This document shows, piece after piece, positions 2 to 27,822 of a stretch of DNA of 27,822 bases. The position numbers and the translations under genes were made by a program. The stretch's first letter is position 1. The number at the start of each line of letters is the position of its first letter. Source of the stretch: a virus; the IMG/VR virus record IMGVR_UViG_3300025889_000751, positions 1-27,822 of that record, one strand, 5' to 3'. The notes under the pieces are model-generated. The model saw only the letters and a list, made by a program, of their open reading frames with translations, was not told where the DNA came from and made no database searches.

Positions 2-40
2 CCTGCGAACGTCACGTCTGTGACGGTCTTCTATGGCTAA
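2..40 (+). CDS. C-terminal end of an upstream gene (partial)
   Basis: Frame 2 is open from the window edge to a TAA at 38-40 and encodes the last dozen residues of a protein, ending in VTVFYG. The short alternating hydrophobic run would suit the end of a beta-rich structural protein, but this is too little to identify. Its stop would overlap the ATG of the next gene at 33 by 8 nt, which fits the tight packing elsewhere. The other two + frames are less convincing: frame 3 stops within about 20 nt. Confidence 0.4.
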   Translation, partial: PANVTSVTVFYG

Positions 41-302
41 GTCAGCGGCATGGACGAGGAAAGAGGGCAAGGACCCCAAAGGCGGTCTAAACGCCAAAGG
101 GCGAGCCTCCTACAACAAGGCGAACCCCGGGAAACCGGGTTTGAAGGCCCCCGCTCCAAGCCCAAAGACAGAGAAAGACGCAGCACGGCGAAAGTCCTTC
201 TGCGCCAGAATGTCTGGGATGAAGTCCAAATTGACGAGTTCAAAGACAGCCAAAGACCCGAACAGTCGTATAAACAAGAGCCTTAGAGCGTGGAACTGCT
301 AA
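33..302 (+). CDS. Small conserved basic phage protein (DUF6321-like)
   Basis: An 89-residue, Lys/Arg-rich protein with no membrane segment. It opens with the motif AWTRKEGKDPKGGLNAKGR, continues with a Pro/Lys stretch, then SFCARMSGMK near residues 55-63, and ends in INKSLRAWNC. I recognise this pattern from small phage proteins, and from memory assign it to DUF6321; the function is unknown. The conserved FCARM and terminal WNC each contain one cysteine. No strong ribosome binding site precedes ATG 33, so translational coupling to the upstream gene is plausible. The basic composition would suit nucleic-acid or capsid contact, but that is inference. Confidence 0.85.
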   Translation: MAKSAAWTRKEGKDPKGGLNAKGRASYNKANPGKPGLKAPAPSPKTEKDAARRKSFCARMSGMKSKLTSSKTAKDPNSRINKSLRAWNC

Positions 303-304
303 AA

Positions 305-553
305 ATGGACATGATGTTGTGGAACGGAGGGTTATCCCTTATCGTTGCTTTAATTCTTCTGTGGGTTAAAACGTCCCAAGATGAAGTTAAGCGCATCGGT
401 ATCTTACTTAGCAAGACTCGCGAAGAGAATGCTGAGAAGTATGTGACTCGTTCCGAACTCCACACAGACATCAACCGCGTTATCGACAGGCTTGATCGGC
501 TAGATACGAAGTTAGATACGTTTATCCGGGAGCAGAAGAGTGCCCTCAACTAG
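305..553 (+). CDS. Small phage membrane protein with coiled coil
   Basis: An 82-residue protein with one N-terminal membrane segment (about residues 5-22, WNGGLSLIVALILLWV). A charged heptad-like helix follows (ILLSKTREENAEKYVT, then INRVIDRLDRLDTKLDTFI), expected to form a coiled coil. I recall similar single-pass proteins from many phages; their role is not known to me, and a lysis or membrane-adaptor role is only a guess. The frame is also open from a GTG at 290 that overlaps the preceding gene by 13 nt. I chose ATG 305 because the familiar protein begins close to the WNGGLS segment; neither start has a good ribosome binding site. It overlaps the next gene by 14 nt. Confidence 0.8.
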   Translation: MDMMLWNGGLSLIVALILLWVKTSQDEVKRIGILLSKTREENAEKYVTRSELHTDINRVIDRLDRLDTKLDTFIREQKSALN

Positions 554-1082
554 CAAAAAACAGGCTAAATTGATGGCGGCTGTGGCGCACAACCCAGCTT
601 TTGCTAAGAAAGTAGGCATCCCACAGTCCGTGGGTAAAGAGTTCAACAAGGCCGATAAAGGCCGTAAATTTGGAACAGGTGGTGATAACATGAAATCCAG
701 CAAGAAAGACATGTCCTTTGACGAAAAAGTCGAAGCTGACAACAAGGTAAAAGAAAAGGATGCCGAGGAACGCGCGACAAAATATCGCACGGATGCCATG
801 ATGGAAGAAGGCAAGAAGAAGGGTGGCATGATTGGCGAGTACGGCGGTGCCGAGAAATACAAGTCCAAAGCAGCTAAGAAGAAGCATGAGGCTAAGGAAT
901 CTCCGTCAGAGGAGAAACTGGAAGCCAAAATGGGCAAGAACATGGCTCGTGCAACCATGCAAAAAGTCGCGTCTCGTGCCGTTAAATCCCACGAAAAGCG
1001 TATGCACAAAGGCATGTCTGGCGGTGGTTCAGTCAAGGGTTATGGTATGGCCCGTGGTGGTCGCGCCTGCAAAATGGTCTAA
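540..1082 (+). CDS. Basic conserved phage protein, PSTSKKQ family
   Basis: A 180-residue, Lys-rich, largely hydrophilic protein. It starts at a GTG and begins MPSTSKKQAKLMAAVAHNP, then KKVGIPQSVGKEFN, a motif I recognise from many phage proteins of unknown function. The GTG is preferred because it restores this N-terminus and has a GGGAG-like site just upstream at about 526-531; the first in-frame ATG (573) would delete it. The middle is charged and helical. Near residue 90 it contains KKKGGMIGEYGG, and it ends in GYGMARGGRACKMV, one of the basic Gly-rich C-termini that recur in this cluster. It overlaps the preceding gene by 14 nt. Confidence 0.85.
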   Translation: MPSTSKKQAKLMAAVAHNPAFAKKVGIPQSVGKEFNKADKGRKFGTGGDNMKSSKKDMSFDEKVEADNKVKEKDAEERATKYRTDAMMEEGKKKGGMIGEYGGAEKYKSKAAKKKHEAKESPSEEKLEAKMGKNMARATMQKVASRAVKSHEKRMHKGMSGGGSVKGYGMARGGRACKMV

Positions 1083-1093
1083 GGAGTATTACA

Positions 1094-1720
1094 ATGGCAT
1101 TTATACGTAAAACATACACTGGCCCCGTCAAGAATCGCGGCACTGTAGCGCGTGGGGGTAAAGAGCTGGCGGATGTGTCTAAAGAAGAGTTGGACGCTTT
1201 CCGCAAAAAAGCTGGAAACGAAGACTTGAGCTACAAAGAAGCACTGCGTAAGTTACTTAATGCAGATCGCAATGCTAAGCCCAAGGCTAAAAAGCCTGAC
1301 GTTCCTAAAGCTAAAGAAGCTCCTCGAATGGACAGTTTTACCGATGCGCCAGAGATAATCAAGCCAGTGGATAGAAGCCCCAAAAAGATTGGTGAAGATG
1401 GCAAACTCAAAAACGTAAACCCTGTGGATATGCCTGAACGTCGTAGGCTTGGTCCAAGAACTGAGGCTCCAGAAATGATTAAAACGTCTGATAAGAAGGA
1501 CGACACTAGCTTATCTGTGAGTGAGCGTATTAAAAACGCCCGCGAGCGTGTTCGTACTAGCGATACTGGTACAGACAAACGTTCTGTTAGCGACCGATTA
1601 AAGGCCGCTTTTGGCATGAAAAAGGGCGGCATGGTCAAAAAAGCCTCTGCCAAAAAGGGTTCAGTAGCCCGAGGCGGCGGTGCTGCTACGCGTGGGACTA
1701 TTTTTAGAGGAGTGCGGTAA
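1094..1720 (+). CDS. Hypothetical basic phage protein
   Basis: A 208-residue, Lys/Arg/Asp-rich protein without membrane segments or a recognisable enzyme domain. The N-terminus carries TGPVKNRGTVARGGKELADVS. A helical segment (KEELDAFRKKAGNEDLSYKE) follows, then a charged linker rich in KPKAKKP-type sequence. The C-terminus has MKKGGMVKKASAKKG and VARGGG, related to the tags on neighbouring proteins. A textbook ribosome binding site, AAGGAG at 1081-1086, sits 7 nt before ATG 1094. Its TAA overlaps the next ATG by one base (TAATG at 1718-1722). I do not recognise a function; packaging, scaffolding or internal head protein are possible roles. Confidence 0.8.
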   Translation: MAFIRKTYTGPVKNRGTVARGGKELADVSKEELDAFRKKAGNEDLSYKEALRKLLNADRNAKPKAKKPDVPKAKEAPRMDSFTDAPEIIKPVDRSPKKIGEDGKLKNVNPVDMPERRRLGPRTEAPEMIKTSDKKDDTSLSVSERIKNARERVRTSDTGTDKRSVSDRLKAAFGMKKGGMVKKASAKKGSVARGGGAATRGTIFRGVR

Positions 1721-2331
1721 TGGCTTTTAATCCAAGAACTCGTAGCAGCGGCGGACGTGGTGGTTTCGGCAGCAACCGTTCCTCACGCCCACAACCTGCG
1801 CCCCGCCCCGCTCAACGCGGGCCCATGGCACCAATGGATGCAGCTCGTCAAGCCGTTTCACAAGGTCAGATGCGGCCTACTGCCCAAAGCGGACCCAACC
1901 CGGCAATGGCTGCGGCTCGGGCTCGTCAAGCCGTTTCACAAGGTCAGATGCGGCCTAGTGCCCAAAGCGGACCCAACCCGGCAATGGCTGCGGCTCGGGC
2001 TCGTCAAGCTGCTGCCATCCAGCAGGGGCAACGTCTATCCAACACGGCAATGACTCCTCAAGCCGCAATGACTCCTCACGCCGCAATGAACCCGGGTCCT
2101 AGTTTTAGTCCCGGAAATGTGAACTCGCCTGGAGTACCGGATCGCGGCAGCATGGATGGCGGAGTTAGTTTTGCTACTGCTCCTTCCGCCGGGCCAATGC
2201 CCCTGCCTTCTTCTTATTCTGGTATGGCGAAGATGAAAAAAGGCGGTAGTGTTAAGACATCAGCTAAATCCGCTGGTAAGAGCCGTGATGGTATTGCCCA
2301 GCGCGGTAAAACAAAAGGAAGGATGTGCTGA
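1720..2331 (+). CDS. Low-complexity phage protein with 26-residue tandem repeat
   Basis: A 203-residue, Gly/Ser/Pro/Gln/Ala-rich, probably disordered protein. It starts with an Arg/Gly-rich stretch (SSGGRGGFGSNRSSRPQ). It then carries two nearly identical 26-residue units (RQAVSQGQMRPTAQSGPNPA and following AMAAARA) differing by one Thr/Ser change, and the beginning of a third. A run of TPQAAMTPHAAMNPGP follows. The C-terminus is MKKGGSVK, then RDGIAQRGKTKGRMC, the same final residues as the next gene's product. GAGGAG at 1707-1712 supports ATG 1720. No function is recognised; the shared tag and location suggest a virion or head-associated protein. Confidence 0.8.
   Translation: MAFNPRTRSSGGRGGFGSNRSSRPQPAPRPAQRGPMAPMDAARQAVSQGQMRPTAQSGPNPAMAAARARQAVSQGQMRPSAQSGPNPAMAAARARQAAAIQQGQRLSNTAMTPQAAMTPHAAMNPGPSFSPGNVNSPGVPDRGSMDGGVSFATAPSAGPMPLPSSYSGMAKMKKGGSVKTSAKSAGKSRDGIAQRGKTKGRMC
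1843..2010. repeat. 78-bp tandem repeat, two full copies plus partial third
   Basis: Copies run 1843-1920 and 1921-1998, and a third copy breaks off after about 10-12 bases from 1999. The two full copies differ at one base that I can see (ACT versus AGT, Thr to Ser). The unit is 26 codons and keeps the frame, so the protein simply gains a repeat. The near identity implies a recent duplication or continuing homogenisation. Confidence 0.9.
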
Positions 2332-2335
2332 AATG
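2287..2335 (+). repeat. Dispersed repeat encoding C-terminal tag, copy 1
   Basis: A 49-base block covering the codons for DGIAQRGKTKGRMC, the stop codon and the start codon of the next gene. It recurs at 2777-2825. The copies differ at six base positions affecting five codons, and all five changes are synonymous. Copy 1 also supplies the ribosome binding site of the gene starting at 2333. Confidence 0.9.
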
Positions 2336-2821
2336 GTACTACCAATATTAGCCAGAGTAGCAGCGGCTGGCGCTGCCGGGTATGGTATGAAAAAAATTGA
2401 CGAAGAAGAAAAAGCCCATCGTAAAGCGCGAGAGGACCGTAAAGCCGAGCGCAGCGGTAAATCTGGCGACCCTAGGTCTCGTGGTCGGCGTATGCCTGAG
2501 AGCTACACGGAAATTGACCCTGTAACAGGTTTCGATGGCCCTAGTCGCACTTTAGAAGATGCTCGTGATAGAGCACGATACCGGTTACAGGGGGAGGCAA
2601 AAGCCGCATATGCCTACAAGAGAGGTGAGCCTTACTCTGAACAGGAGATTGATCTTGCTAACACAATCTATGGAAACGAAAAAGCTAAAGCGGAGCGTAA
2701 AAAGAAAGAAGTAAAAGCAGCTAAAGAAGCTGTTGAAGGCATGAAAAAAGGCGGCGTCGTAAAAAGAAGTCGTGGCGATGGTATTGCTCAGCGTGGTAAA
2801 ACCAAAGGTCGGATGTGCTGA
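2333..2821 (+). CDS. Hypothetical phage protein with basic C-terminal tag
   Basis: A 162-residue protein starting MVLPILARVAAAGAAGYGMK, a short hydrophobic N-terminus. Long charged helices follow (EEEKAHRKAREDRKAER; later YGNEKAKAERKKKEVKAAKE). It ends in MKKGGVVKRSRGDGIAQRGKTKGRMC, identical in its last 14 residues to the preceding protein. The frame is open further upstream (ATG 2249), but ATG 2333 is chosen because it follows the previous stop directly (TGAAATG) and has an AAGGAAGGA site at about 2315-2323. That site lies inside the codons for the previous protein's tag. Function not recognised. Confidence 0.8.
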   Translation: MVLPILARVAAAGAAGYGMKKIDEEEKAHRKAREDRKAERSGKSGDPRSRGRRMPESYTEIDPVTGFDGPSRTLEDARDRARYRLQGEAKAAYAYKRGEPYSEQEIDLANTIYGNEKAKAERKKKEVKAAKEAVEGMKKGGVVKRSRGDGIAQRGKTKGRMC

Positions 2822-2825
2822 AATG
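2777..2825 (+). repeat. Dispersed repeat encoding C-terminal tag, copy 2
   Basis: Second copy of the block at 2287-2335, with the same peptide, the same stop codon and the same TGAAATG junction to the next gene. The sequence around the purine-rich site is AAAGGTCGGATG instead of AAAGGAAGGATG, so its Shine-Dalgarno match is weaker. Confidence 0.9.
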
Positions 2826-3215
2826 CCAGATGTAGCCAAGAAAACATCGCCTGATAAGTGGGAGAAGGCCAAAGCCGACGCCAAAGCGCGTATGGGTGGC
2901 AAACATTCCGCTCGGGCGATGCAACTGGCTACTAAGCTCTACAAAGAGCGTGGCGGTGGGTATTCTGGGGCTAAGGGCAGCGATAACAAGCTGTCCAAGT
3001 GGACTAAGGAAGATTGGGGCACGAAGTCAGGGAAGAACTCAACGGTTGGGCCAAAAGCCACTGGCGAGCGGTATCTACCCAAGAAAGCCCGTGAGAGTCT
3101 GAGCAGTAAGGAATACGCAGCTACCACCCGTGCTAAACGGGAAGGAACGGCTAAAGGCAAGCAGTTTGTGGCACAGCCAAAGAAAATTGCGGCTAAAACA
3201 GCGAGATACAGATAA
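2823..3215 (+). CDS. DUF5872 family protein
   Basis: A 130-residue basic protein: SPDKWEKAKADAKARMGGKH, then LYKERGGGYSGAKGSDNKLSKWTKEDWGTKSGK, GPKATGERYLPKKARESLSSKEYAATTRAK, and a terminal QPKKIAAKTARYR. The W(T/S)KEDWGTKSGK and ATGERYLPKKARE...EYAATTRAK blocks are characteristic of DUF5872, found in phages and large viruses, whose function is unknown. Together they form most of the protein, so it appears full length. ATG 2823 is chosen over an in-frame ATG at 2772, which would start inside the preceding gene. Its stop overlaps the next start by one base. The charge and composition suggest binding to nucleic acid or the capsid interior (inference). Confidence 0.88.
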   Translation: MPDVAKKTSPDKWEKAKADAKARMGGKHSARAMQLATKLYKERGGGYSGAKGSDNKLSKWTKEDWGTKSGKNSTVGPKATGERYLPKKARESLSSKEYAATTRAKREGTAKGKQFVAQPKKIAAKTARYR

Positions 3216-3901
3216 TGGCAACATCAGGAACTACTGCGTTTAACATGGACCTCACCGAGCTGGTCGAGGAGGCGTTCGAACGCGCCGGTGTCGAAATGCG
3301 TACTGGTTACGATTTACGGACCGCTCGCCGATCCCTAAACTTGATGTTTACAGATTGGGCCAACCGTGGCATCAACATGTGGACTATCGAGCAGGGTACC
3401 ATTCCTATGGTGGCTGGTACAGGTACATACAACCTGCCGTCAGATACAGTTGATCTTATTGAGCATGTGATTCGTACAGGTTCTGGTACAAATCAGGCTG
3501 ATTTGTCTGTTTCTCGTATCAGTGTTTCTACCTACGCGTCTATTCCTAATAAGCTAACTACTGGTCGCCCTATTCAGGTTTATATAGATAGGGTTTCCCC
3601 TACCCCCACAGTTAATATGTGGCCCGTACCTGATACTGCCCAGACTTATACGTTGGTTTACTGGCGTTTACGTCGTATCCAAGATGCTGGTGGCGGTGTT
3701 AATACGATGGATGTCCCATTCCGATTCTTGAACTGTATGGTTGCCGGGCTGGCTTATATGCTATCCATGAAAGTGCCCGGCGGTATGGATCGTGTTGGAC
3801 TATTAAAGCAACAGTATGACGAGGCATGGGAATTGGCTGCGACCGAAGATAGAGACAAGTCTTCAAGTCGTTTTGTCCCACGTTACATGGCGATTAATTA
3901 A
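3215..3901 (+). CDS. Putative head-tail adaptor / tail accessory protein
   Basis: A 228-residue soluble protein with the conserved start TTAFNMDLTELVEEAFERAG, then RTGYDLRTARRSLNLMFTDWANRG, a helical block typical of phage connector adaptors. A beta-rich middle follows (GTYNLPSDTVDLIEHVIR; TGRPIQVYIDRVSPTPTVNMWP). The C-terminal helical region (RFLNCMVAGLAYMLSMK, then LLKQQYDEAWELAATEDRD) is also familiar. By architecture I compare it to the P22 gp4 / T7 gp11 class of proteins that extend the portal. That comparison is inference from layout and the nearby SU10-type adaptor, not a demonstrated homology. Start and stop both overlap the neighbours by one base. Confidence 0.8.
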   Translation: MATSGTTAFNMDLTELVEEAFERAGVEMRTGYDLRTARRSLNLMFTDWANRGINMWTIEQGTIPMVAGTGTYNLPSDTVDLIEHVIRTGSGTNQADLSVSRISVSTYASIPNKLTTGRPIQVYIDRVSPTPTVNMWPVPDTAQTYTLVYWRLRRIQDAGGGVNTMDVPFRFLNCMVAGLAYMLSMKVPGGMDRVGLLKQQYDEAWELAATEDRDKSSSRFVPRYMAIN

Positions 3902-17342: not shown

Positions 17343-19712
17343 ATGAATAACCTACGCCCAATTGCACAAGCTGTCCGGTCACAAGGACGTAACCAAGATA
17401 CACAGCTTGTCCACATGACGCCCCGTGAAGTTGCGGGATTGCAGGCGCTTGCTATGGCGCACGGTGGCTCACTAAGTATTAACCCTAGTACGGGTTTACC
17501 CGAAGCTGGCTTCCTAGATAAACTTCTACCCGCCGTTGCTGGTTTTGCTCTTGGCCCAGCAGGTTTTGGGTTGATGAGCTCTCTTGGCGCTGGCTTGACT
17601 GTTGGTGGTATAGCTGCTCTGACCTCTGGAGATTTGGGCAAAGGACTGCAGGCTGGTTTGGGTGCTTGGGGCGGCTCGTCTCTTGGCGAAGGTATTCTCG
17701 GCGCAGGCAACGCTGCTCTTGGGGCGGCTAACGCGCCTACTACTGCCGCAGCAGCGCAAAGCGAGGCAGCTAAACAATACGTAACTCAGGGAGCGCAGCA
17801 AGCAGCGGCTGCAAACGCTGCCGCAGAAGTCTCAAAAGCAGAGGCGTTAAAAGCTGGTTTAATGAACCCATCAGGTGTTATTGACCAGATGGGTGGTTTT
17901 GGAAAGACTGCTACGGCACTTGGCGCGGCGGCGTCTCCGTTACTACTCTCTCAGCAAACCACAACTAAAATGCCGGATGTGAAACGTAATCCCGTTACAG
18001 TGGCGCAGCTTGAGTACCGCAAACAGGTAGCGCAGCCCCGCCGTGACCCTAACGACACAAGTGAGCAAAATTGGTTTACTGGCCCCGGCTATGTGAAAGT
18101 AGGGGAAACTACCTACGGCGCTGAAGGCGGCGCTATTGGTTATGCTCAAGGCGGTGCCCCTGTTACAGGCGGCAGACGTGCTATTTTGTCGAATGAAGAG
18201 TACCTCAATCAGTATTTTTCTCCTGTTCAAACCGCAACTCAAATGCCCGGAGTTCGCAAGGCTTCTGGCGGTATCGTTTCATTAGCTGATGGTGGGCTAT
18301 CCAACTATACCCCTTATGGCGCCGGTTACAAACCTATGACGCCGGAAGAATTCTCCAAAATGTATTTCGGACAGTCTGCGACACCGACCGGTTTGCCCGG
18401 CGGAGTTTCTGGCTATGAGGGACGTAGAAACTACACGCCACCGACCGGTACACAGACGCCGTCAACCCCCGGCACTGGTGGTCAGAGCGACATTCTTGTA
18501 GACGCCGAAGGTAAGAAGTACCGACTTGAGTTCGACTCCGCCACCGGTACATACCGCAAGATTTACGAAGCTGAAACCCCCGGTGCCGGTGCTGCTGGTG
18601 GTGCTGCTGGTGGTGCTGGTGTTGCTGGTGCTGGTGGTGTTGGTGGTGCGGGTATTATGGGTGGCGGAGATAGCGCCGGTTCCACTCGCAACGCATATCA
18701 AGAGATGGAAGACAAAGCCTATCAAGAGTACAAATCGTACGGCTACGATGATGAAGCGGCTAGAATAGCCGCAGAAAGAGACACGCTTGCTAAACAATAT
18801 GCCAGCAACCAAGAACTCGCTGATGTTTTAAAAAGTATTTCTAATTTCTCAATTCTTGGCACTGCGGCTAAACTTTTAACTAGCGGCGATCCCTCTAATC
18901 GCGAAGGGCCTCCAGCTGGCGCTGAAAAAATCAACATAAATACTGGGCAAAAAACGACTGTTTCACCCCCCGGTTCTGGTCCTGTTGGTCCTATTGGTTT
19001 AGAAGGTATTGGGTACGTGCCATCAGATAGCGGGGGGTATTCTTATCCCGGCATGCCGACAATTGATACTACGGGTGTTGTCGCATACCCCTCATCAGGA
19101 ACCCCTGCTCTCCCTGCAGATTTGGTAGATTTCGGTGGCGCAGGCCCGGTAGTAACACCTAATACCGAATACACAATTGACTATAACCCACCCACTCCAA
19201 TATTTGACTGGTCCTACAACGACTCCGGTAGTAGTGGTGATAGTTCCGGCGGTGGGAGTACTACAACTACGGGCGACACGTCGATGGGAACGACCAGCTC
19301 TTTTGAGAGCGCTTACGCCTGGGCCAATGGTGGTCTCCTATCTCTTGCTGCTGGCGGCATGGCTAAGGGTGGCTTTGTTGTCCCCGCCGACGTTGTTAGT
19401 GCATTGGGTAATGGTAGTACTGATGCAGGTCTGCGTGCGCTACAAGCTAAACTGGGCGCAATCAAACCAATTAAAGGCAAAGGCGACGGGTTGAGCGACT
19501 CTATCCCAACACACATTGATGGTGTGCAACCTGCGCGGGTAGCCGACGGTGAGGCGTACATTGACCCTAGGACTGTTGCTAAAATAGGCGGTGGAGATAT
19601 GAAAAAAGGAGCTAGCAAGCTCTACGCCATGATGGACAAAATCCGTAAGGCGGCACACGGTAAAACTTCTCAGCAGCGTAAAGTCAATCCTGCTAAAGTC
19701 GTAAAGGCGTAA
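17343..19712 (+). CDS. Large glycine-rich virion protein, probable ejection protein
   Basis: A 789-residue protein. The start contains LVHMTPREVAGLQALAMAHGGSL, then LPEAGFLDKLLPAVAGFALGPAG and hydrophobic Gly/Ala-rich segments (about 58-125) that could insert in membrane. A Gly/Ala run lies at about 415-445. Three GG-motif blocks are present: about 260-275, about 307-320 and about 662-680. The C-terminus (from residue 662) holds GGFVVPADVVSALGNGSTDAG, GKGDGLSDSIPTHIDG, ARVADGEAYIDP and LYAMMDKIRKA, a conserved phage domain that I recognise from tail or internal proteins of aquatic phages. It is the first of three huge genes; packaging in the head or tail and ejection is an inference. Function not demonstrated. 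Confidence 0.82.
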   Translation: MNNLRPIAQAVRSQGRNQDTQLVHMTPREVAGLQALAMAHGGSLSINPSTGLPEAGFLDKLLPAVAGFALGPAGFGLMSSLGAGLTVGGIAALTSGDLGKGLQAGLGAWGGSSLGEGILGAGNAALGAANAPTTAAAAQSEAAKQYVTQGAQQAAAANAAAEVSKAEALKAGLMNPSGVIDQMGGFGKTATALGAAASPLLLSQQTTTKMPDVKRNPVTVAQLEYRKQVAQPRRDPNDTSEQNWFTGPGYVKVGETTYGAEGGAIGYAQGGAPVTGGRRAILSNEEYLNQYFSPVQTATQMPGVRKASGGIVSLADGGLSNYTPYGAGYKPMTPEEFSKMYFGQSATPTGLPGGVSGYEGRRNYTPPTGTQTPSTPGTGGQSDILVDAEGKKYRLEFDSATGTYRKIYEAETPGAGAAGGAAGGAGVAGAGGVGGAGIMGGGDSAGSTRNAYQEMEDKAYQEYKSYGYDDEAARIAAERDTLAKQYASNQELADVLKSISNFSILGTAAKLLTSGDPSNREGPPAGAEKININTGQKTTVSPPGSGPVGPIGLEGIGYVPSDSGGYSYPGMPTIDTTGVVAYPSSGTPALPADLVDFGGAGPVVTPNTEYTIDYNPPTPIFDWSYNDSGSSGDSSGGGSTTTTGDTSMGTTSSFESAYAWANGGLLSLAAGGMAKGGFVVPADVVSALGNGSTDAGLRALQAKLGAIKPIKGKGDGLSDSIPTHIDGVQPARVADGEAYIDPRTVAKIGGGDMKKGASKLYAMMDKIRKAAHGKTSQQRKVNPAKVVKA
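18581..18651 (+). repeat. Gly/Ala-codon microsatellite (GGTGCT-type)
   Basis: A run of GGT and GCT codons with occasional GTT encodes a Gly/Ala-rich stretch inside the protein at 17343. It is low-complexity DNA prone to slippage, and its length may vary between related phages. Confidence 0.75.
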
Positions 19713-19721
19713 GGACAAATC

Positions 19722-22214
19722 ATGGCAGATCAAACTATTACCCAAACAACAAGTTCGATCCCGGACTGGGCGCAAAGCTACTTTACTGGTGATAAAGGGA
19801 TTTTTTCCCAAGCGCAGGCGCTGGCTGAAACGGAATATAAGCCCTATACCGACCAGCGTATTGCGGATTTTAGCGGGCTAACTACACAGGCTATTAAGGG
19901 TGCTGGGGCTATGGCGCCTTCTGGCTTTACCACATTAGGTGGCGGTATTGCTGGGTCGGCAGCGCTAAATGCTGGGAACATGAACTACCAAGGTTTCCAG
20001 CCCGGTCAGTTTACAGGACAAGCGGCAAGTCAATACATGAACCCGTTCATGCAGAACGTGGTGGATATTCAGCAGCGCGAAGCGCAACGTCAAGCTGATA
20101 TTGCAGGTACGCAACGCGGCGCACAAGCAGTTAAAGCCGGTGCGTTTGGTGGGTCTCGTCAAGCAATTATGGATGCTGAAGCCCAGCGTAACTTAGCTCT
20201 CCAAATGGGCGACATTCAAGCGCAGGGTCTGAACCAAGCGTTTACTCAAGCCCAAAATCAGTTTAATACTGAGCAGCAACTAGCTGAACAAGCTCGTCAA
20301 TACGGTGCCGGTTTAGGGTTGCAAGGACTGCAAACCGCCATTCAAGGTGCTGGGCAGTTGGGGACTTTGGGTCAGCAGAGCTTTACTCAGGGTATGGATA
20401 TTAACAAGTTGCAGGGCCAATACGGTGCTCAGCAACAGGCTCTGGAGCAGTCCAAGCTGGATCGGGATTATCAAGACTTTTTGACGCAAAAGCAGTACCC
20501 GTACCAACAATTAGGCTTCTACACCGACATTCTTGGTACCGGCCTGCGCGGCGCATCAGGCGTTACATCAGAGGCAAGTCAGATATATGCGCCTCCCCCA
20601 AGCACTATATCGCAGCTAGCCGGTTTAGGTACAGCGGCTATTGGGTTGGGTGGTTTGTTTACTAATAAAGCTAAAGGTGGCTCAGTCGGCTACGCAGAAG
20701 GTGGATCAGTTGGGGGGTATGCTACAGGTGGTATTTCTGGGTTAAACCCTATGGAACTTGATGCGGCTACCGACCGTATGAGCGACCAGCAGATGCAGGG
20801 TGTTATGGGTCTGGCTAGTGTTACGGACTTAGCTAAACTGCAAATTGCGCAAAAGCTAGCTCAAAATAACATGATCCGTCAGGCAGCGCAGCAGGCACAA
20901 GCCGCAGCTCAACCACAACCACAAGGTACGATTGCCGACGAAGCGCTTGCTGAGATGGGTATTGGTGGTTTAGACGTACCTGATGAAACATTTAGTGCAG
21001 CGGGCGGTGGTATTGTGGCTTTTGGTGTTGGTGGGACCACACTACGAGACATAGAAAGCCGTGCAGGTATTCCTTATGGTACTGAATCTCGCTTTGAGCT
21101 GGATCGACGTAAGGTTGAAGAGGCGAATAGAGAACAAAAAGAAAAAGAAGAAGAGCAGGCTATGCTCCGGCCACTTACTAGGTCACTTACTACGGCTCCG
21201 AAAAAACAGAACGCCGTGCCTGACGCTAGTACTGAACTTAAAGGCATTATGGGGCTTATGGATACTCCAGAGGCCAAAGCTGCGCGTAAAAACTACACTA
21301 GCCAAAAGAAAGAAGCTGCTGAACTACTAGCAGATACGGCTTACGAAGACATGGCTGATTACGACGTAGATCAAGCAAAACTTGGTAAGCGAGGCGTCAA
21401 ACGTGAAGAGTCTATCAATAAACAGTTGGAAGAGTTGACTGGACAAAAAGATCAAAACTTTAACATGGCTCTACTTGAAACAGGTTTAGCCATGATGGCT
21501 GGTACCTCAGCTAATCCGTTTGAAAATATCGGTAAGGCCGGTTTGATCGGCAAAAAATCGTACGAAGCAAGCCAAGAAAAGTTGCAAGCGCGTAAGGACA
21601 AACTTGAAGAGGCGATGAACGATTTGGAGGACGCTCGCTTCACTGATACTAAAGAAGGTATGGCTGAGCAGCGCCGTCTTAAAGGTGTGTACAACAAGGC
21701 TAAAGCTGATGTTACAAACGTCATGGCTGAAGTTTACGGTAAGCTGGAAGTAGAGCAGCCACAAAAAATGGCTGAAACGGCTCTCAATATTTGGGCTGCG
21801 GATAGACGCCAAGCACTTTCCGACGCCCGTGCTGATGCTAGGGCTATTAGAACGGAAGACCCAGTAAACGCACTAAAGCGGCGAATTGACGAAGCCTACA
21901 CCGCAGGGGATGTGGCGCTAGCTGAAAAACTTACAGAGCAGATGAAGTCTACGCAAATGGCTGCGTATGCTCCTATGACTACGCAACAAGGGCGGCTGAC
22001 TGTTGAGCAGGTTAAAGCACTTAATGAAATAGTATCAAAAGAAGCGCACGCTTTATCTATTGCTAGAATGTCTGGGAACCCAGAAAAAATAGCGCAAGCA
22101 AAAACAGACTACGATAATGCGTTTACTAAGGCTCAAGTAGCGTTAGGGCTTATACCTAGCGCAGGAGCTGGTAACTCTCCACCACCTCCCGACGGATATA
22201 AACGAGATCAATAA
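19722..22214 (+). CDS. Large Gln-rich helical virion protein, probable ejection protein
   Basis: An 830-residue, Gln/Ala-rich, largely helical protein. The N-terminal ~275 residues are a module I recognise from aquatic phages: IPDWAQSYFTGDKG, EYKPYTDQRIADFSGLT, QYMNPFMQNVVDIQQREAQRQ (residues 104-124), AVKAGAFGGSRQAIMDAEAQRN, YGAQQQALEQSKLDRDYQDF, KQYPYQQLGFYTDILGTGL. A Gly-rich motif follows (AKGGSVGYAEGGSVGGYATGG, about 317-337), then AAGGGIVAFGVGG (about 427-438). The last 370 residues are charged, coiled-coil-like helices, and the tail is Pro-rich (SPPPPDGYKRDQ). Its role is unknown; position and composition suggest an internal virion or ejected protein (inference). AAGGA just before the ATG supports the start. 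Confidence 0.82.
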   Translation: MADQTITQTTSSIPDWAQSYFTGDKGIFSQAQALAETEYKPYTDQRIADFSGLTTQAIKGAGAMAPSGFTTLGGGIAGSAALNAGNMNYQGFQPGQFTGQAASQYMNPFMQNVVDIQQREAQRQADIAGTQRGAQAVKAGAFGGSRQAIMDAEAQRNLALQMGDIQAQGLNQAFTQAQNQFNTEQQLAEQARQYGAGLGLQGLQTAIQGAGQLGTLGQQSFTQGMDINKLQGQYGAQQQALEQSKLDRDYQDFLTQKQYPYQQLGFYTDILGTGLRGASGVTSEASQIYAPPPSTISQLAGLGTAAIGLGGLFTNKAKGGSVGYAEGGSVGGYATGGISGLNPMELDAATDRMSDQQMQGVMGLASVTDLAKLQIAQKLAQNNMIRQAAQQAQAAAQPQPQGTIADEALAEMGIGGLDVPDETFSAAGGGIVAFGVGGTTLRDIESRAGIPYGTESRFELDRRKVEEANREQKEKEEEQAMLRPLTRSLTTAPKKQNAVPDASTELKGIMGLMDTPEAKAARKNYTSQKKEAAELLADTAYEDMADYDVDQAKLGKRGVKREESINKQLEELTGQKDQNFNMALLETGLAMMAGTSANPFENIGKAGLIGKKSYEASQEKLQARKDKLEEAMNDLEDARFTDTKEGMAEQRRLKGVYNKAKADVTNVMAEVYGKLEVEQPQKMAETALNIWAADRRQALSDARADARAIRTEDPVNALKRRIDEAYTAGDVALAEKLTEQMKSTQMAAYAPMTTQQGRLTVEQVKALNEIVSKEAHALSIARMSGNPEKIAQAKTDYDNAFTKAQVALGLIPSAGAGNSPPPPDGYKRDQ

Positions 22215-22216
22215 TA

Positions 22217-25200
22217 ATGGCCCTTCAAACAGCTACTAATCCAAAAACCGGTGAACGTGTAGCTCTTGTAGGTGGTCAGTGGGTTCCTATAACTCAAACT
22301 GCTACTAATCCAGAGACCGGGGCGCGAGTCGGTTTAGTTAACGGACAGTGGCTACCACTGCCTACTAGTGCGGGTATGAGTAAACCAACTCAAGCGCAGC
22401 CTACGGATGAGACTCCAGAAGATCAGTCATTCCTCCGTGAGATTGCTGACGTTCCGTTGAAGTTAGCTGGCGGTGTCACCACTGGTGTTCGTCTTATCGC
22501 CGACGCGCTAGGTGCAGATAACGCTATTTCTCAAAATCTGCGTGGGGTCGAAGACTGGATCGGCGCGTTGTATAGCGCCCAGTCAAAACAAGACAGCCAA
22601 GAAATCGCTCGGATTATGAAGGAGGCCGAGAACAAGGGCGTAGCCGATCAGGTTGTCGCCGGTCTTAAAGCCTTCTCCGTTGCTCCAATTGACATGGTTG
22701 TCAACGCGCTTGGTACATCTGCCCCTGCAATCGTTGCTGGCTTGGCGGGCGTTCCAGCTATGCTCGGTGTCGGTGCTGTGATGGGTGCTGGTACGGCTAA
22801 GAGTGCTATTTATGACGCTACCAAAGAAATACTAAAAGAAAAAACACAAATGTCACCCCAGCAGATTGAAGCTGCTGCGGTTAAAGCACAGGAATATGGC
22901 GGCGAAAACCTAGACCAAATTCTGCTTTCTTCTGGCATAGGCGCGTTTGCTTCTAGGACCGGTGCAGAAGCTAGTATTGTCAAGCAAATTGCTAAAAGCA
23001 TAGAAGAGCGCGCTGCAATTAAGAAAGTTCAGTCTGCGGCGGCAGAAGCGGCTGCTAAAAAAGTGGCTGAGCGCGGTGCGATAAGACAAGGGGCGCTCAC
23101 CGCTGGTAAAGAATCCGCTACCGAGGCAGTTCAGGGTGGACAAGAACAGTTTGCCGCCAACCTAGCGCAGCAACGCCAAGGTTTCGATACCCCACTTATG
23201 CAGGGTGTTGCCGGTCAAGCCACTCTTGAAGGCGTAGCTGGTGCAGGGCTTGGCGCTATCTCAGGCGCACGAGAGTCCATGGTAGAGCAGAGGGCGCAGC
23301 AAGCTAAACTTCCTTCTGGAGAACCCGATACAGATTTTCTGTTCACCAGCGAAGAAGGTGATGTACCTTCTACACAAAGAGGCTTTACGGCTGAAGATGC
23401 TGATTTGCTCTTGCCGTCCTCTACACAGGCAGGTGCGGCTACGGTAGAAGGTGTTACTCGTCCCGAAGTAACTGAAGAGACTATTACACCAGAAACAGTA
23501 GCGCAAAAATATTTGGATGATATTGCTAGCGGAGCAGTGAAACCAAGTTGGCCTAAGCTTAAAAAACTTGCTTCTGATTTAGGTATTGAAGTAGAAACAG
23601 GAGAAGGGTCTAGCCAACGTGCCCAAGAAGCTATCGCCGCCCGTCTTAAAGGACAACAAGATGTTACAGGAACTATCGACCAAACAGCTGGAGAAGGCGC
23701 TGGAGTGGCTGGAGAGCCCGGAGCAGCGGGTGCCGAAGGACTTGGAACAACTGTCGACGGTGGAGTGGATACTACTGGAGCAGATACTGCGGACGTTACA
23801 GGAGGAGAAGGAACTCAACTCCCTACACTAGCCACTCTAAAACCCGGGCAGCAAGTAGCTTTGTACCGTGGTGAAAGTGAAGAAAATGATGCCAACGGTC
23901 AGTGGTGGACTTCTGATCCGGCTAAAGCCGCTAAATACGGCGCAGTAACTCAACGAACGTTGCCCGCTGAAGTAATTGGCGCAAACGCTGCGCAAGGAGC
24001 TGGCGGTGCGGATGAGTTTGTATTCCCAAACAAAAGACCTAACGAACTTCTACTAGAACAGTTTGAAGATGTAATAGACTTAGGTGGACCAGTAGACCTG
24101 ACTGCTAACGTTCCAGAAGTAGCACCGGGGCAACTTAGCCCGGGGTCTACAGCCACTACTACCATTGAACGCGACGGCGAGACTACTACAACCACAATCC
24201 CCGCTAAGGCTGAACCTATAGCAGAAAATAGGACAAAGGCACGTATTGCCGCAGATGAAGCGCAAAACGAATTTGAAGTACTTAACGAGCAAGTAAACGA
24301 ACTAGAAAATGAGATAGCTGGACTACGACTAAAAGATGGTAAATTACCTGCCCCTAATTCCCCAGCCCGTAAGAAATACGATGAGCTTACTCAGCAGCTG
24401 GAAACTTTACGCTCTCAGAGCGACGCCGCTGAAGCAAGGGCAAACCGCCTATTTGACGACTATAAAGCGCTGTCAGACGAAAACAAATTATCCGCTAGAA
24501 AAGAAGAACCTACTTCTGCTCTCACGTTTCCACAGCGACGGAAGATTGACAACCCAGTCGTAAAGGCCGCGCTAGCCAAAACACCCTATGAACGTAAAGA
24601 AGGTGTCAGTGTACAAAATATACCACCAGACGCGGAACAGAAATATAACGCTGCTAGAGAAGAATTACTGCCGGGTATTAGGGACTACAACGAAAAACGT
24701 AAGCCTCTAATAAAAGCAGTAGAAGAGGCGGAAGAAAAACTAAAAAGACTCAAAAAGAACAACGCTTCTGAAGAAGAAATAGGCGCGGCTGAAGATGCGC
24801 TTAACGATGCAGAGTTTGACTTACAAGAATACGGTCCAGAGGTAACTGAGCCGGGGGAATGGTACAAACTAGATTCATGGGAAAAAGAGGTCCTTTTTGA
24901 TTCTATTAAATCATCCAGTATTTCAGGGCCAGATGAAGCCGACATATTAGATTATCGTGATGGCGTAGCTGCAATTTCTGAAGTTAATACGCTATTAGGT
25001 GAAGAGAAAGTAACGGCAGACGCGGGTGAACGCCGCATCATGCTTGAGTACGACCGTAATCGTAACGCGGCTAAAAATCGTATAAAAAATCAAATAGAAG
25101 AAACCACTAACAAAGCTTTTGATTTTTCTTTACCACGCTGGAGTGATTTATCTGATAAAGCAAAGGATTTATTCCGTAACGCTGTACAGGTCGTTAATCC

Positions 25201-27822
25201 AAATACGAATAAGTTAGAGCCAACACTTACGCTTGAACAGCAAGATGCTGGATATGAAGCTGTGGTCGCTCAATTACTGGCTGAAGAGAACTCTCGTGGA
25301 GCCCTTAGCCCAGAAATTATAAAACAGCGGGAAGAGCAATTAAATAAGTTCCGCGCGCAACGTGAAAAAGACCTTGCTGAACTCAAGAAAGTTCAAGAAG
25401 ACTACGAAAGACGTAATAAAGGTGCTAAAGCTGCTGGTGCTACCACACTACCAAATAATGTAATTGAACAGCTTCAGCGCGGCAACCTAAACGCCGCGTT
25501 AGACATTTTACTTGCTAGGTTAAATAATAAACAAAACAAGTCAACTGCTGAAAAACTTCAGATACAAGTGTTGACTCAGTTACGCAAGTTAAACCTCAAG
25601 ACTAAGGTCACGGTTGCTGGCGATATGTTGCCTGACGGTGACTTGGCGCGCTACTACACTGACGATGACCATATAATTTTTAGCCCATCAGCAAACAGTT
25701 TTACAGCTCACACGTTAGCACACGAAGTAACCCATGCCGCTACAGTTACCGTTTTATACCGGTATCTAAATAAACAATACAACATGATTACCGCTCAGCA
25801 AAGAGCTGCGGCGGCGCAAATCGAAAAACTATTTAGAGCTACAAAACCATTCTTAGGTGACAAGTTTGCTAATGCGTATGAAAACCCATACGAGTTTGTT
25901 GCTTACGCAATGACAAATAAAGGGTTTGCTAACGCTCTTAAAAATTTAGGAGTGAAGAACCTGTATCCCGGCGTGAGCCCAGAGGAGGGGATTGAACTTA
26001 CAACGGTCGGTAAAGAAGTAACGGTAGAGGAAGCCGGACGCCAAGTAAATCGTACTTTGGGTGGCCCCGAAATCATAAATAGACTGAAGAATATAGCTTC
26101 AATCTTACCCGCTGCACGTAATGCATGGTCAGTATTCAAACAAAGTGTTGCTGAGATATTGGGTATACCACCCGGTCGCATGTCTTCTGTTAACTACTTA
26201 ATGGAGATGCACGCAGCGTTTGAAGACATTTTGGCAGCGCCAATAGAACCGATTTATCTGACCGGTAAGTCTACGCTTGCCGCTAAAGGTGCTAAACCTA
26301 AGCCTAAGCCTAAAAAAGTAAAAGAAGGAGAGACACCAAAAGAAAAAGGACTCTTTGAAGACGATGAGCGGTACACAGTACGTGACAAAATCTCGCCTAG
26401 TAGACTACGTCAGTTAATTAGAAGACTGACTACTAGAGAAGGTTGGCAAGATAATATCCGTGACTTCCAAGACAAGACTTATTTCACCCGTGTTTGGCAA
26501 AATACTAGGGCAAAAGCTGGTCAGATTACGCATGACCCATCAGGTGCGTTTACTAATATAGCCGACCAACAAGATGGGGCAATGGCTGATGCTAGGAATT
26601 TTGTAACATATTACGTCCAAGAGCCGGTAGATGCGCTACGCAAACTTGTCGCCAACTATGCTGAAAAATATAACAGAAACATAGATAAGCAAGTTTTGCC
26701 AATGATTGCTAAGTTGGCTGAAATGTTCCACGAACCAGAACGGCGCATAGTCTACTTCATTATGCGGGTACCTCTTAGTACAGAGTCTACAGGCCCCAAA
26801 GGGCTAATCCATAATGGTAAACCAATTAGCGCCGCAGACCGCAGAGTTCAACTTGTGGGTGATCCTGCTATAGGCAGGGAAGGACTTATCCATAGGATTG
26901 ATTTAACAAAAGAACAACGCTTAGCTATCCGAAAAGAGCTTGAATTTTTAGCTGATAACTATGCCGATGCTAACGGCTATGGAATGGCTGCTTCTAGTGA
27001 TATGTCACCAGCTGAAAAAGCAAAATTATTAGATAAAAACAATAGCGCGTATAACGCGGTTGGTATTAGTTTAGATACGGTTAAAGATCGAAGAGAAGAA
27101 TTTAATCAGCTGTCCGAAGAAGAACGTAAAGACATCGAAGCTATTTTTGACCAAATCCGAAAAGTTGCTGAAGTTCAAAAAACTTTAGACAAGATCGGTA
27201 AATATTGGTCGCGCCCAGTGGATAACCTTGTCGGTATATACGACTATAAATACTATATGCCATTCCAAGGATTTAACGAAAGCGCAGCGGATAGGCAGTT
27301 GGACCCTGAATCATTGGCGGCGGTTGAATCTCAGGAAATACCAATGCCTGGTACAGGTCGTTCTGAGACTACAACAAGATCAAAGAACCCACTACTTGCT
27401 CTTTTGGCTAACACCTATCGCGCAGCTGGAAGAGCCGGACGGCGTAACTATACACAGTCAATTAAGAATGCAATAGAGCAAGGTTTGATACCTGAAGGAA
27501 AAATTGTTGCGAAATTTACTTTTGCTCAACGCGAAGCTGATCCAAAACTGATACAGCAGTTTAAAGGCGCTAAAGGTAAAAGCATCTTCCATTACGATTC
27601 CGATGGTACTCTGTACATTATGCAGATCAGGGGTAATGACAGACTATTGAACTCTATGCGCCCAGAATTAGCCCAGCCAAATTGGTTGCTTGATATGGCT
27701 AATGACATAACTGGTTTCTTTGGCGCTCAGCACACGCGCTATAACTACAACTTTGCGCCATTGAACTTTGTGCGCGATACGTTAACCAACGCATGGAACA
27801 TTGGCGCTAGTGGTGATTTGGG
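22217..27822 (+). CDS. Large polyvalent protein (partial, runs off window)
   Basis: Open frame from ATG 22217 (1-nt gap-free junction TAATAATG) to the window end: at least 1868 residues without a stop. Order: two 'ATNPxTGxRVxLVxGQW' repeats (6-24, 29-47); a hydrophobic Gly/Ala segment (~166-193, possible membrane insertion); a helical part; an acidic Gly/Thr linker (~475-535); a candidate ADP-ribosyltransferase region (~545-605) with LYRG (R551), WWTSDPAKAAKYG (T565, S566) and ADEFVF (E600); coiled-coil helices (~670-1110); a zincin motif HEVTH (1169-1173) with a likely third ligand E1226 in NPYEFVAY; and at the end RYNYNFAPLNFVRDT, the beginning of an LPD38-like region. This fits the large polyvalent proteins injected by phages, which carry toxin-like and protease domains. 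Assignments of ART and LPD38 come from memory. The C-terminus is cut off. Confidence 0.85.
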   Translation, partial: MALQTATNPKTGERVALVGGQWVPITQTATNPETGARVGLVNGQWLPLPTSAGMSKPTQAQPTDETPEDQSFLREIADVPLKLAGGVTTGVRLIADALGADNAISQNLRGVEDWIGALYSAQSKQDSQEIARIMKEAENKGVADQVVAGLKAFSVAPIDMVVNALGTSAPAIVAGLAGVPAMLGVGAVMGAGTAKSAIYDATKEILKEKTQMSPQQIEAAAVKAQEYGGENLDQILLSSGIGAFASRTGAEASIVKQIAKSIEERAAIKKVQSAAAEAAAKKVAERGAIRQGALTAGKESATEAVQGGQEQFAANLAQQRQGFDTPLMQGVAGQATLEGVAGAGLGAISGARESMVEQRAQQAKLPSGEPDTDFLFTSEEGDVPSTQRGFTAEDADLLLPSSTQAGAATVEGVTRPEVTEETITPETVAQKYLDDIASGAVKPSWPKLKKLASDLGIEVETGEGSSQRAQEAIAARLKGQQDVTGTIDQTAGEGAGVAGEPGAAGAEGLGTTVDGGVDTTGADTADVTGGEGTQLPTLATLKPGQQVALYRGESEENDANGQWWTSDPAKAAKYGAVTQRTLPAEVIGANAAQGAGGADEFVFPNKRPNELLLEQFEDVIDLGGPVDLTANVPEVAPGQLSPGSTATTTIERDGETTTTTIPAKAEPIAENRTKARIAADEAQNEFEVLNEQVNELENEIAGLRLKDGKLPAPNSPARKKYDELTQQLETLRSQSDAAEARANRLFDDYKALSDENKLSARKEEPTSALTFPQRRKIDNPVVKAALAKTPYERKEGVSVQNIPPDAEQKYNAAREELLPGIRDYNEKRKPLIKAVEEAEEKLKRLKKNNASEEEIGAAEDALNDAEFDLQEYGPEVTEPGEWYKLDSWEKEVLFDSIKSSSISGPDEADILDYRDGVAAISEVNTLLGEEKVTADAGERRIMLEYDRNRNAAKNRIKNQIEETTNKAFDFSLPRWSDLSDKAKDLFRNAVQVVNPNTNKLEPTLTLEQQDAGYEAVVAQLLAEENSRGALSPEIIKQREEQLNKFRAQREKDLAELKKVQEDYERRNKGAKAAGATTLPNNVIEQLQRGNLNAALDILLARLNNKQNKSTAEKLQIQVLTQLRKLNLKTKVTVAGDMLPDGDLARYYTDDDHIIFSPSANSFTAHTLAHEVTHAATVTVLYRYLNKQYNMITAQQRAAAAQIEKLFRATKPFLGDKFANAYENPYEFVAYAMTNKGFANALKNLGVKNLYPGVSPEEGIELTTVGKEVTVEEAGRQVNRTLGGPEIINRLKNIASILPAARNAWSVFKQSVAEILGIPPGRMSSVNYLMEMHAAFEDILAAPIEPIYLTGKSTLAAKGAKPKPKPKKVKEGETPKEKGLFEDDERYTVRDKISPSRLRQLIRRLTTREGWQDNIRDFQDKTYFTRVWQNTRAKAGQITHDPSGAFTNIADQQDGAMADARNFVTYYVQEPVDALRKLVANYAEKYNRNIDKQVLPMIAKLAEMFHEPERRIVYFIMRVPLSTESTGPKGLIHNGKPISAADRRVQLVGDPAIGREGLIHRIDLTKEQRLAIRKELEFLADNYADANGYGMAASSDMSPAEKAKLLDKNNSAYNAVGISLDTVKDRREEFNQLSEEERKDIEAIFDQIRKVAEVQKTLDKIGKYWSRPVDNLVGIYDYKYYMPFQGFNESAADRQLDPESLAAVESQEIPMPGTGRSETTTRSKNPLLALLANTYRAAGRAGRRNYTQSIKNAIEQGLIPEGKIVAKFTFAQREADPKLIQQFKGAKGKSIFHYDSDGTLYIMQIRGNDRLLNSMRPELAQPNWLLDMANDITGFFGAQHTRYNYNFAPLNFVRDTLTNAWNIGASGDL
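22232..22357 (+). repeat. Two copies of a 19-residue N-terminal motif
   Basis: Codons 6-24 (22232-22288) and 29-47 (22301-22357) encode ATNPKTGERVALVGGQWVP and ATNPETGARVGLVNGQWLP, a period of 23 codons (69 bp). The DNA copies differ more than the protein copies, so the peptide is conserved rather than newly duplicated. Confidence 0.9.

Follow-up and report, generated by a model that had tools for sequence, protein, structure and literature searches.

Four consecutive genes in a stretch of viral DNA of 27,822 nucleotides (IMG/VR virus record IMGVR_UViG_3300025889_000751, positions 1 to 27,822; the whole stretch is called the window) each end in a short C-terminal peptide, called the tag here, and the rest of each protein is called its body. 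The tags of these genes, which lie at 540-2821, belong to a family with three classes, A, B and C, that keeps a fixed register to the stop codon, is conserved at the protein level and is nearly restricted to one head-module lineage and to the block of genes between capsid and tail adaptor. Related bodies may carry or lack a tag and exchange one class for another, a tagged body is less often common to two genomes than an untagged block gene, and the tag looks disordered in two structural models of low confidence. What could such a tag be for? With moderate confidence, and from sequence, we propose that it is a C-terminal docking peptide which recruits variable cargo to the head (the capsid or procapsid) of one phage lineage.

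Conservation of the peptide and its register to the stop

An earlier note on this DNA had described two neighbouring proteins that share their last 14 residues after an MKKGG-type sequence. This was borne out: the open reading frames (ORFs) 1720-2331 (203 residues) and 2333-2821 (162 residues) both end in DGIAQRGKTKGRMC, preceded by MKKGGSV in the former and by MKKGGVV in the latter. The count of synonymous differences given at that time was also reproduced codon by codon. Five of the 15 codons, stop counted, differ between the two copies (GCC/GCT, CGC/CGT, ACA/ACC, GGA/GGT and AGG/CGG), all of them synonymously, with 0 amino-acid changes. There are thus 5 differences at 9.33 synonymous sites and 0 at 32.67 non-synonymous sites, and under random placement among sites the chance that all five would be synonymous is about 5e-4. 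The proteins at 540 and 1094 do end in related sequence, as had been proposed: the first in VKGYGMARGGRACKMV (class B) and the second in RGGGAATRGTIFRGVR (class C), which gives the order B, C, A, A, with R-G at positions -9/-8 from the C-terminus in all four tags. The location assigned to the shared end, 1630-2821, takes in both class A tags (2287-2331 and 2777-2821), but its start falls inside the preceding gene.

Does selection act on the peptide beyond the window? A sample that was not chosen by tag, namely the 80 loci most like the window adaptor (the best 80 of at least 600), provided 14 within-genome tag pairs from 8 loci. The proportion of differing sites was 0.56 for synonymous sites (pS) and 0.18 for non-synonymous sites (pN), with a pN/pS of 0.32. 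The 14-mers and pairs were taken with a filter that demanded GKT at -8 to -6. Without those three codons, pS is 0.58, pN 0.22 and the ratio 0.38; the first six codons by themselves give 0.26. As a control, stretches drawn at random from the bodies of the same gene pairs, which are not homologous, had a pN/pS of 1.01. The selection on the peptide that had been suggested from the two window copies is thus supported by sequence comparison in a wider set. Among 44 distinct class A 14-mers of this sample, G stands at -13 in 44/44 and the choice elsewhere is limited, while codons are mixed.

One possibility is that the tag has no function as protein and was left behind when neighbouring genes recombined or underwent gene conversion, or that it is a side effect of the ribosome-binding sites where genes meet. 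Codons -4 and -3 are indeed skewed, to GGA/GGG and AGG, and a Shine-Dalgarno-like word is found in 18 of 25 tags that are closely followed by a gene, compared with 74 of 211 untagged genes. From these two observations, the last tag codons probably double as the ribosome-binding site of the next gene. As an account of the whole tag this explanation is highly improbable, for the excess of synonymous differences given above stands against it, the codons used at most other positions are mixed and close to background (Thr and Ala are somewhat skewed to C/T-ending codons), and each of three unlike classes ends at a set distance from the stop. The synonymous differences and the existence of three classes rule out that recent duplication or gene conversion accounts for everything.

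The register was measured with looser DNA patterns for each class that contain no stop codon, so that the distance to the stop was left free. All 68 class B matches lie exactly 2 residues from a stop; among the matches listed, so do 135 of 140 for class C, and 116 of 179 for class A lie exactly 3 residues from it. The remaining class A matches listed are found 10-29 residues (48), 43-46 residues (14) and 71 residues (1) before the stop. When 25 off-register matches were viewed, the 10-29 group proved to be mostly a longer form, A2, belonging to the family of the window protein at 540, and the three viewed at 43-46 (L363, L379, L389) were an N-terminal form of the motif. In larger sets of ends (191 A, 125 C and 43 B), the class-defining residues and the stop distance were fixed by filters, and evidence on register therefore comes from the stop-free scans. 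R or K occupies position -9 in 99% of the A and 92% of the C ends; the ends also have Ala at -11 or -10 and Gly at -13 or -12, and most have a hydrophobic residue at -2. A GG lies upstream of the tag in 190/191 A, 43/43 B and 83/125 C ends. Among ORF ends, identity to the tag has a bimodal distribution with the trough at 6-7/14, and the reversed tag reaches at most 5/14 (first 119 tag-chosen contigs and the window), by which chance similarity as the source of the tag is ruled out. The earlier note had considered that tags of relatives might differ freely at the protein level; their variation is patterned.

Phage lineage, gene block and tagged bodies

The exact peptide with its stop, back-translated, occurs in at least 119 stretches of IMG/VR; the 122 ORFs tagged in this way have bodies that look different from one another. 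IMG/VR possibly contains near-duplicate contigs, and the counts given here are of contigs or distinct sequences, not of independent events. A count of the tag across phage genomes had been proposed, and it made the observation larger than first noted, with 68 matches for class B and at least 179 and 140 for A and C. A core head-module gene of a single lineage was found in 67/67 class B contigs, in 113 of the 120 listed for class C and in 114 of 117 examined for class A (120 listed); these contigs were fetched by tag patterns and then checked for head genes. Among the first 119 contigs, 115 have a capsid, adaptor, cement or neighbouring structural gene and the other 4 have block genes. In 21 long tag-chosen records, all 46 matches fall into a single cluster per record, none wider than about 3 kb, and the reversed pattern has 0 matches.

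The block begins at the capsid gene and ends at the tail adaptor gene. Where both genes are seen (47 loci), they enclose 83 of the 85 class A tags. In the adaptor-fetched sample, 43 of 44 loci have at least one tag (mean 2.2) and 30 have class A proper. Of 79 loci, these 44 have 2 kb or more of upstream sequence, the other 35 being set aside, and tags were called by broad regular expressions, by which at least two class B labels (L162, L183, both with other tags) look wrong; the locus counted as untagged, L188, has a tag-like end.

Could the tag belong to the hosts? In genome_contigs (84,980 species), 5 contigs match the tag pattern and 4 of them have this phage head module, which rules out a host protein sorting tag. 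In the fifth, a contig from a Patulibacter metagenome-assembled genome (L125:165-1841), an ORF that looks like a membrane enzyme by eye is joined to a full class A tag near the contig end; this contig is possibly an assembly chimera.

The lineage is one of mostly uncultured aquatic tailed phages. Its capsid protein is present in 21 named records, including HTVC023P, DSL-LC04, Pag-Yong1 and CRP-901, and that of DSL-LC04 matches Phage_capsid_4 and Mu gpT, a type which we take to have the HK97 fold. The label 'Pam1-like', from one GenBank note, was rejected for the lineage: the window adaptor and the DSL-LC04 capsid protein have no match among PDB sequences. HTVC023P carries class C tags on gp32, beside the portal gene, and on gp51, and Pag-Yong1 carries a class A-like tag, RDGCAKRGRTKGRFI, on UMO75986. 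A tblastn search of short tag tails against annotated phages gave no match, a weak negative since the tagged HTVC023P and Pag-Yong1 were also missed.

Two alternatives are to be weighed here. The tag might be a C-terminal degron of the ClpX kind, with basic residues and a non-polar end, for timed removal of proteins in the host. Every class does end mostly in hydrophobic residues or Cys after basic ones, and the C-terminus of MuA is presumably similar. Such a degron is nevertheless very unlikely here: conservation extends about 16 residues from the end, longer than we take such degrons to need, and the tag rarely occurs outside one lineage and one gene block. The other alternative is docking to the outside of the particle or to its neck (adaptor, portal vertex), with the tagged proteins as decoration or tail parts. 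The end of the block at the tail adaptor gene, two tags past the adaptor in L004 and the place of HTVC023P gp32 beside the portal gene speak for it, but the block starts at the capsid gene and many bodies are by eye disordered, charged or membrane-seeking, unlike decorations; it is considered unlikely.

What proteins carry the tag? The 393 distinct tagged proteins gave 366 bodies of at least 25 residues, which fall into 180 similarity clusters, 125 of them single; low complexity was masked, which may split families, and ORF starts are guesses. For 112 of the 180 cluster representatives, scans found no Pfam, PHROGs or PADLOC family that matches more than 2, and no curated family of these collections that covers the tag across bodies. 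The earlier note had asked for the same tag on terminase, portal, capsid or scaffold neighbours; none of the 112 was recognised as any of these, the bodies being small and mostly without family. Most are basic, with a median isoelectric point (pI) of 9.5. Since the tags are themselves rich in Arg, Lys and Gly, they might be nucleic-acid-binding tails by which the proteins coat or condense phage DNA in the head or in the infected cell, bound to DNA or RNA and not to a head protein. We hold this to be unlikely: a quarter of the bodies have a pI below about 8.2, the tag keeps almost wholly to one head-module lineage, and the conserved Gly and Ala (including the invariant class A G at -13, a position that the filter left free) and the fixed distance from the C-terminus exceed what such a tail needs.

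By eye, recurrent kinds of body include a hydrophobic Gly/Ala N-terminus followed by charged sequence, as in the window protein at 2333, and EF-hand/dockerin-like bodies (one member also by family scan). A family predicted to be a six-stranded antiparallel sheet (L282:1497-1877, L332:5601-6104, L272:2752-3129) has weak structural matches, none significant, including cyanophage outer-membrane-like barrels and porins; relatives of it in L274, L288 and L233 have no tag at the ORF end. Foldseek with this family and with a model of the 540 protein returned nothing at E <= 0.001, and PDB profile searches gave no informative match. In two AlphaFold models the tag end has a predicted local distance difference test score (pLDDT) mostly below 50 and lies behind better-predicted helices or strands.

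Sharing between genomes was compared for the bodies and their untagged neighbours. Between genomes at 55-65% adaptor identity, sharing is 0.11 for tagged bodies and 0.34 for untagged block genes; at 95-99.5% it is 0.50 and 0.58, and tagged bodies are lower in every identity bin. The genome pairs in this comparison are not independent, contigs are often cut and loci are partly tag-selected. Tags are exchanged on related bodies. The 540 family has 226 homologous ORFs in the collected loci. Of 218 members, 207 carry class A or A2, one (L223) carries class C and 10 have an unclassified end, and the window protein itself has class B. Body clusters mix tag classes, and in the second cluster this mixing may rest on low-complexity similarity. 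DUF6321 proteins have an untagged W-x-C end in 170 of 184 homologues, a tag is appended in 11 (including L362) and 3 have no recognisable end; the appended tag follows the terminal W-N-C. This collected set is partly tag-selected.

A putative docking peptide and known targeting systems

From the small residues at fixed distance, the linker, the unrelated bodies, the single lineage and block and the interchangeability of classes, we infer a docking signal. That the docking is to the head, that tagged proteins are in the virion and are delivered to the host, and that a head component is the receptor are predictions of the proposal. In each protein a flexible linker rich in Lys-Gly-Gly would connect the body, folded or disordered, with a terminal motif of 14-16 residues. 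The motif has a Gly and an Ala some 10-13 residues before the C-terminus and [RK]-G at -9/-8, followed by basic residues and an end that is mostly hydrophobic; its three classes would be interchangeable. The motif would dock onto a head component conserved in the lineage, which may be the scaffold, the inner face of the HK97-type shell or the portal. Proteins that are small, mostly basic and rapidly exchanged would be loaded into or onto the head by docking as the procapsid assembles, and would then travel with the genome.

A number of observations weigh against this reading and should be noticed. The 540 family usually has at least 10 residues behind the motif, and the GG linker is missing in 42 of 125 class C ends. 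There are 24 distinct proteins that start with a class A-like motif (the 12 viewed are all about 60 residues long), and all 8 with known adaptor position begin about 1.1 kb past the adaptor start; since these lie outside the block, the motif does not depend on a free C-terminus or on the block. No marker gene is present in 6 of the 120 class C contigs listed (one of them, L236, is probably a chance match), two tags of L004 lie past the adaptor as mentioned, and 8 of 82 capsid-adaptor intervals have no tag, as against 74 with one in a set that is partly tag-selected. Among the named relatives, 9 of the 12 read (of 21 records in all) have no recognisable tag in the stretches read, which are not whole genomes: CRP-901, CRP-902, HTVC027P, 023Pt_psg01, Caulobacter RW, Alcaligenes QDWS535 and three metagenomic phages. 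DSL-LC04 has tag-like ends only. The tag is thus not needed for this head. The overall confidence of the AlphaFold models is low, with predicted template modelling scores of 0.25 and 0.49. The block also borders tail genes, and on this ground docking at the neck or tail would fit equally.

The proteins with a class A-like start (L134, L136, L139, L144, L168, L170, L174, L182) are 60-64 residues long, begin MAFTKSADGIAxKGKTxGKN... and often end in GR(N/G)xAR..NQKRG, class B-like by eye. They may have two tag-like ends, by which they could bridge proteins.

How does the tag compare with known targeting signals? Our best reading by analogy is that it would work like the capsid-targeting sequences of T4 and P1 and the cargo peptides of encapsulins, to be filed as a member of neither. 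It is not filed with T4 and P1 because it lacks their N-terminal position, and because sufficiency for targeting, shown for the P1 signal, is a prediction for the tag. The cargo-loading peptides of encapsulins are C-terminal, stand behind a flexible linker on unrelated cargo and serve a shell of HK97 fold. The tag is alike in its C-terminal placement after a linker, as seen from the GG counts and the low pLDDT of the tag in two models. Encapsulins are bacterial compartments, while the tag belongs to phage genes, and the two are likened by description, shell docking being predicted for the tag.

In T4, the capsid-targeting sequence is a short terminal peptide that brings several head proteins (the internal proteins and Alt) into the prohead, according to parts of PMC5694885. 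The tag resembles it as a short terminal peptide shared by several unrelated proteins (180 clusters from 366 bodies, presumed to be cargo), and resembles signals of T4/P1 type in that the genes lie in or near the head block, as do 83 of 85 class A tags. The T4 sequence is N-terminal, has 10-20 residues and is removed by the prohead protease (same parts of PMC5694885), whereas the tag is C-terminal, has a fixed register and is carried by about 180 body clusters; the two were compared by description. In P1, an N-terminal signal of 30 residues in DarB is sufficient to bring a foreign protein into the head, as stated in a portion of PMC9024508. That signal is on one large protein, according to the same portion, while the tag is C-terminal and on many bodies. 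DarA and Hdf of P1 are minor proteins that, according to PMC12810830, bind DNA and the inner surface of the head, and the genome organisation of P1 differs from that of the tagged lineage. Jumbo phages like phiKZ package ejection proteins, several with long N-terminal propeptides that are cut by the prohead protease (parts of PMC5694885). The N-terminal module of the window 540 protein recurs in proteins of phiKZ-like phages that are not shown to be ejection proteins.

As heads of T4 and phiKZ type cleave their targeting peptides (in the same parts of PMC5694885), the tag might instead be a cleavage or recognition site for a prohead protease, but hardly so: the motif ends 2-3 residues from the C-terminus, which leaves almost nothing to cut off, and no separate protease was recognised among 9 head-module proteins of DSL-LC04 scanned (the portal was outside the scan). 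The match of the DSL-LC04 capsid protein to families of fused protease and capsid lay in their capsid portion. Of the roles named in the earlier note, docking or packaging is therefore kept as the best reading, given the position of the tags between capsid and adaptor, and protease recognition finds no support.

The docking proposal can be extended, more tentatively, to a scenario in which the three peptide dialects form a lineage-wide 'postcode' that routes hypervariable small proteins into the HK97-type head for delivery to the host. About 15 codons gained at the 3' end would make any protein a cargo, and the block would be an exchangeable cargo bay. The cargo would comprise membrane-seeking, beta-sheet, EF-hand-like and disordered proteins, which could be counter-defence or entry proteins.

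The letters of the tag and fragments of the three classes did not occur in 5.39 million open-access texts (subscription papers and preprints lie outside this collection), and a literature search by concept, for a C-terminal phage cargo motif, found no paper describing the tag by title or abstract. Searches on HTVC023P and Pag-Yong1 brought up no virion data in the texts consulted. If true, the docking proposal offers a way to find virion cargo of uncultured aquatic phages from sequence only, where the small genes of the head block are otherwise orphans. To the capsid-targeting signals of T4 and P1, which are N-terminal, it would add one at the other end of the protein, and it would provide a compact tag with which proteins could be loaded into phage particles. 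The old question as to which small proteins of a phage reach the cell together with its DNA could then be put to the test in HTVC023P and Pag-Yong1, which are tagged.

Features of the window

Coordinates of the tags, the tagged genes and the other genes of the block are collected in Table 1.

Table 1. Tags and block genes in the window
Feature	Positions	Strand	Basis
DUF6321 protein, untagged	33..302	+	
Small block protein, untagged, hydrophobic N-terminal stretch	305..553	+	
Tagged protein, 180 residues, N-terminal helical module (about 1-43)	540..1082	+	
Class B tag VKGYGMARGGRACKMV and stop, end of ORF 540-1082	1032..1082	+	class from pattern scans
Tagged protein, 208 residues, body without recognised family	1094..1720	+	
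Class C tag RGGGAATRGTIFRGVR and stop, end of ORF 1094-1720	1670..1720	+	class from pattern scans
Tagged protein, 203 residues, Pro/Gln/Ala-rich body with 78-bp tandem repeat	1720..2331	+	
Class A tag DGIAQRGKTKGRMC and stop, end of ORF 1720-2331	2287..2331	+	read from sequence
AAGGAAGG within tag codons, 10 nt 5' of next ATG, likely ribosome-binding site of ORF 2333	2315..2322	+	inferred from codon skew
Tagged protein, 162 residues, short hydrophobic Gly/Ala-rich N-terminus, then charged body, no recognised family	2333..2821	+	
Class A tag DGIAQRGKTKGRMC and stop, end of ORF 2333-2821	2777..2821	+	read from sequence
Block protein, untagged, phrog_14910	2823..3215	+	
Tail adaptor, SU10 adaptor family, downstream boundary of block	3215..3901	+	

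The N-terminal module of the 540 protein (540-668, about 43 residues, three predicted helices) is also found in phiKZ-like jumbo phages and Rhizobium phages, matches two PHROGs named virion structural protein and, in Stenotrophomonas phage BUCT555, forms a free protein of 52 residues beside a portal-size gene. The tandem repeat of the gene at 1720-2331 lies in frame at 1843-2009, with 2.1 copies and 98% matches. Far from the block, two large proteins (17343-19712 and 19722-22214) have repeated internal GG motifs (AKGGSV, AEGGSV) that resemble the tag linker and are without the terminal tag motif; the product of 19722-22214 matches a PHROG named DNA ejection protein. The open-ended ORF that follows (22217-27820, at least 1868 residues) has an HExxH-type stretch (HEVTH) and is possibly a multi-domain injected protein.

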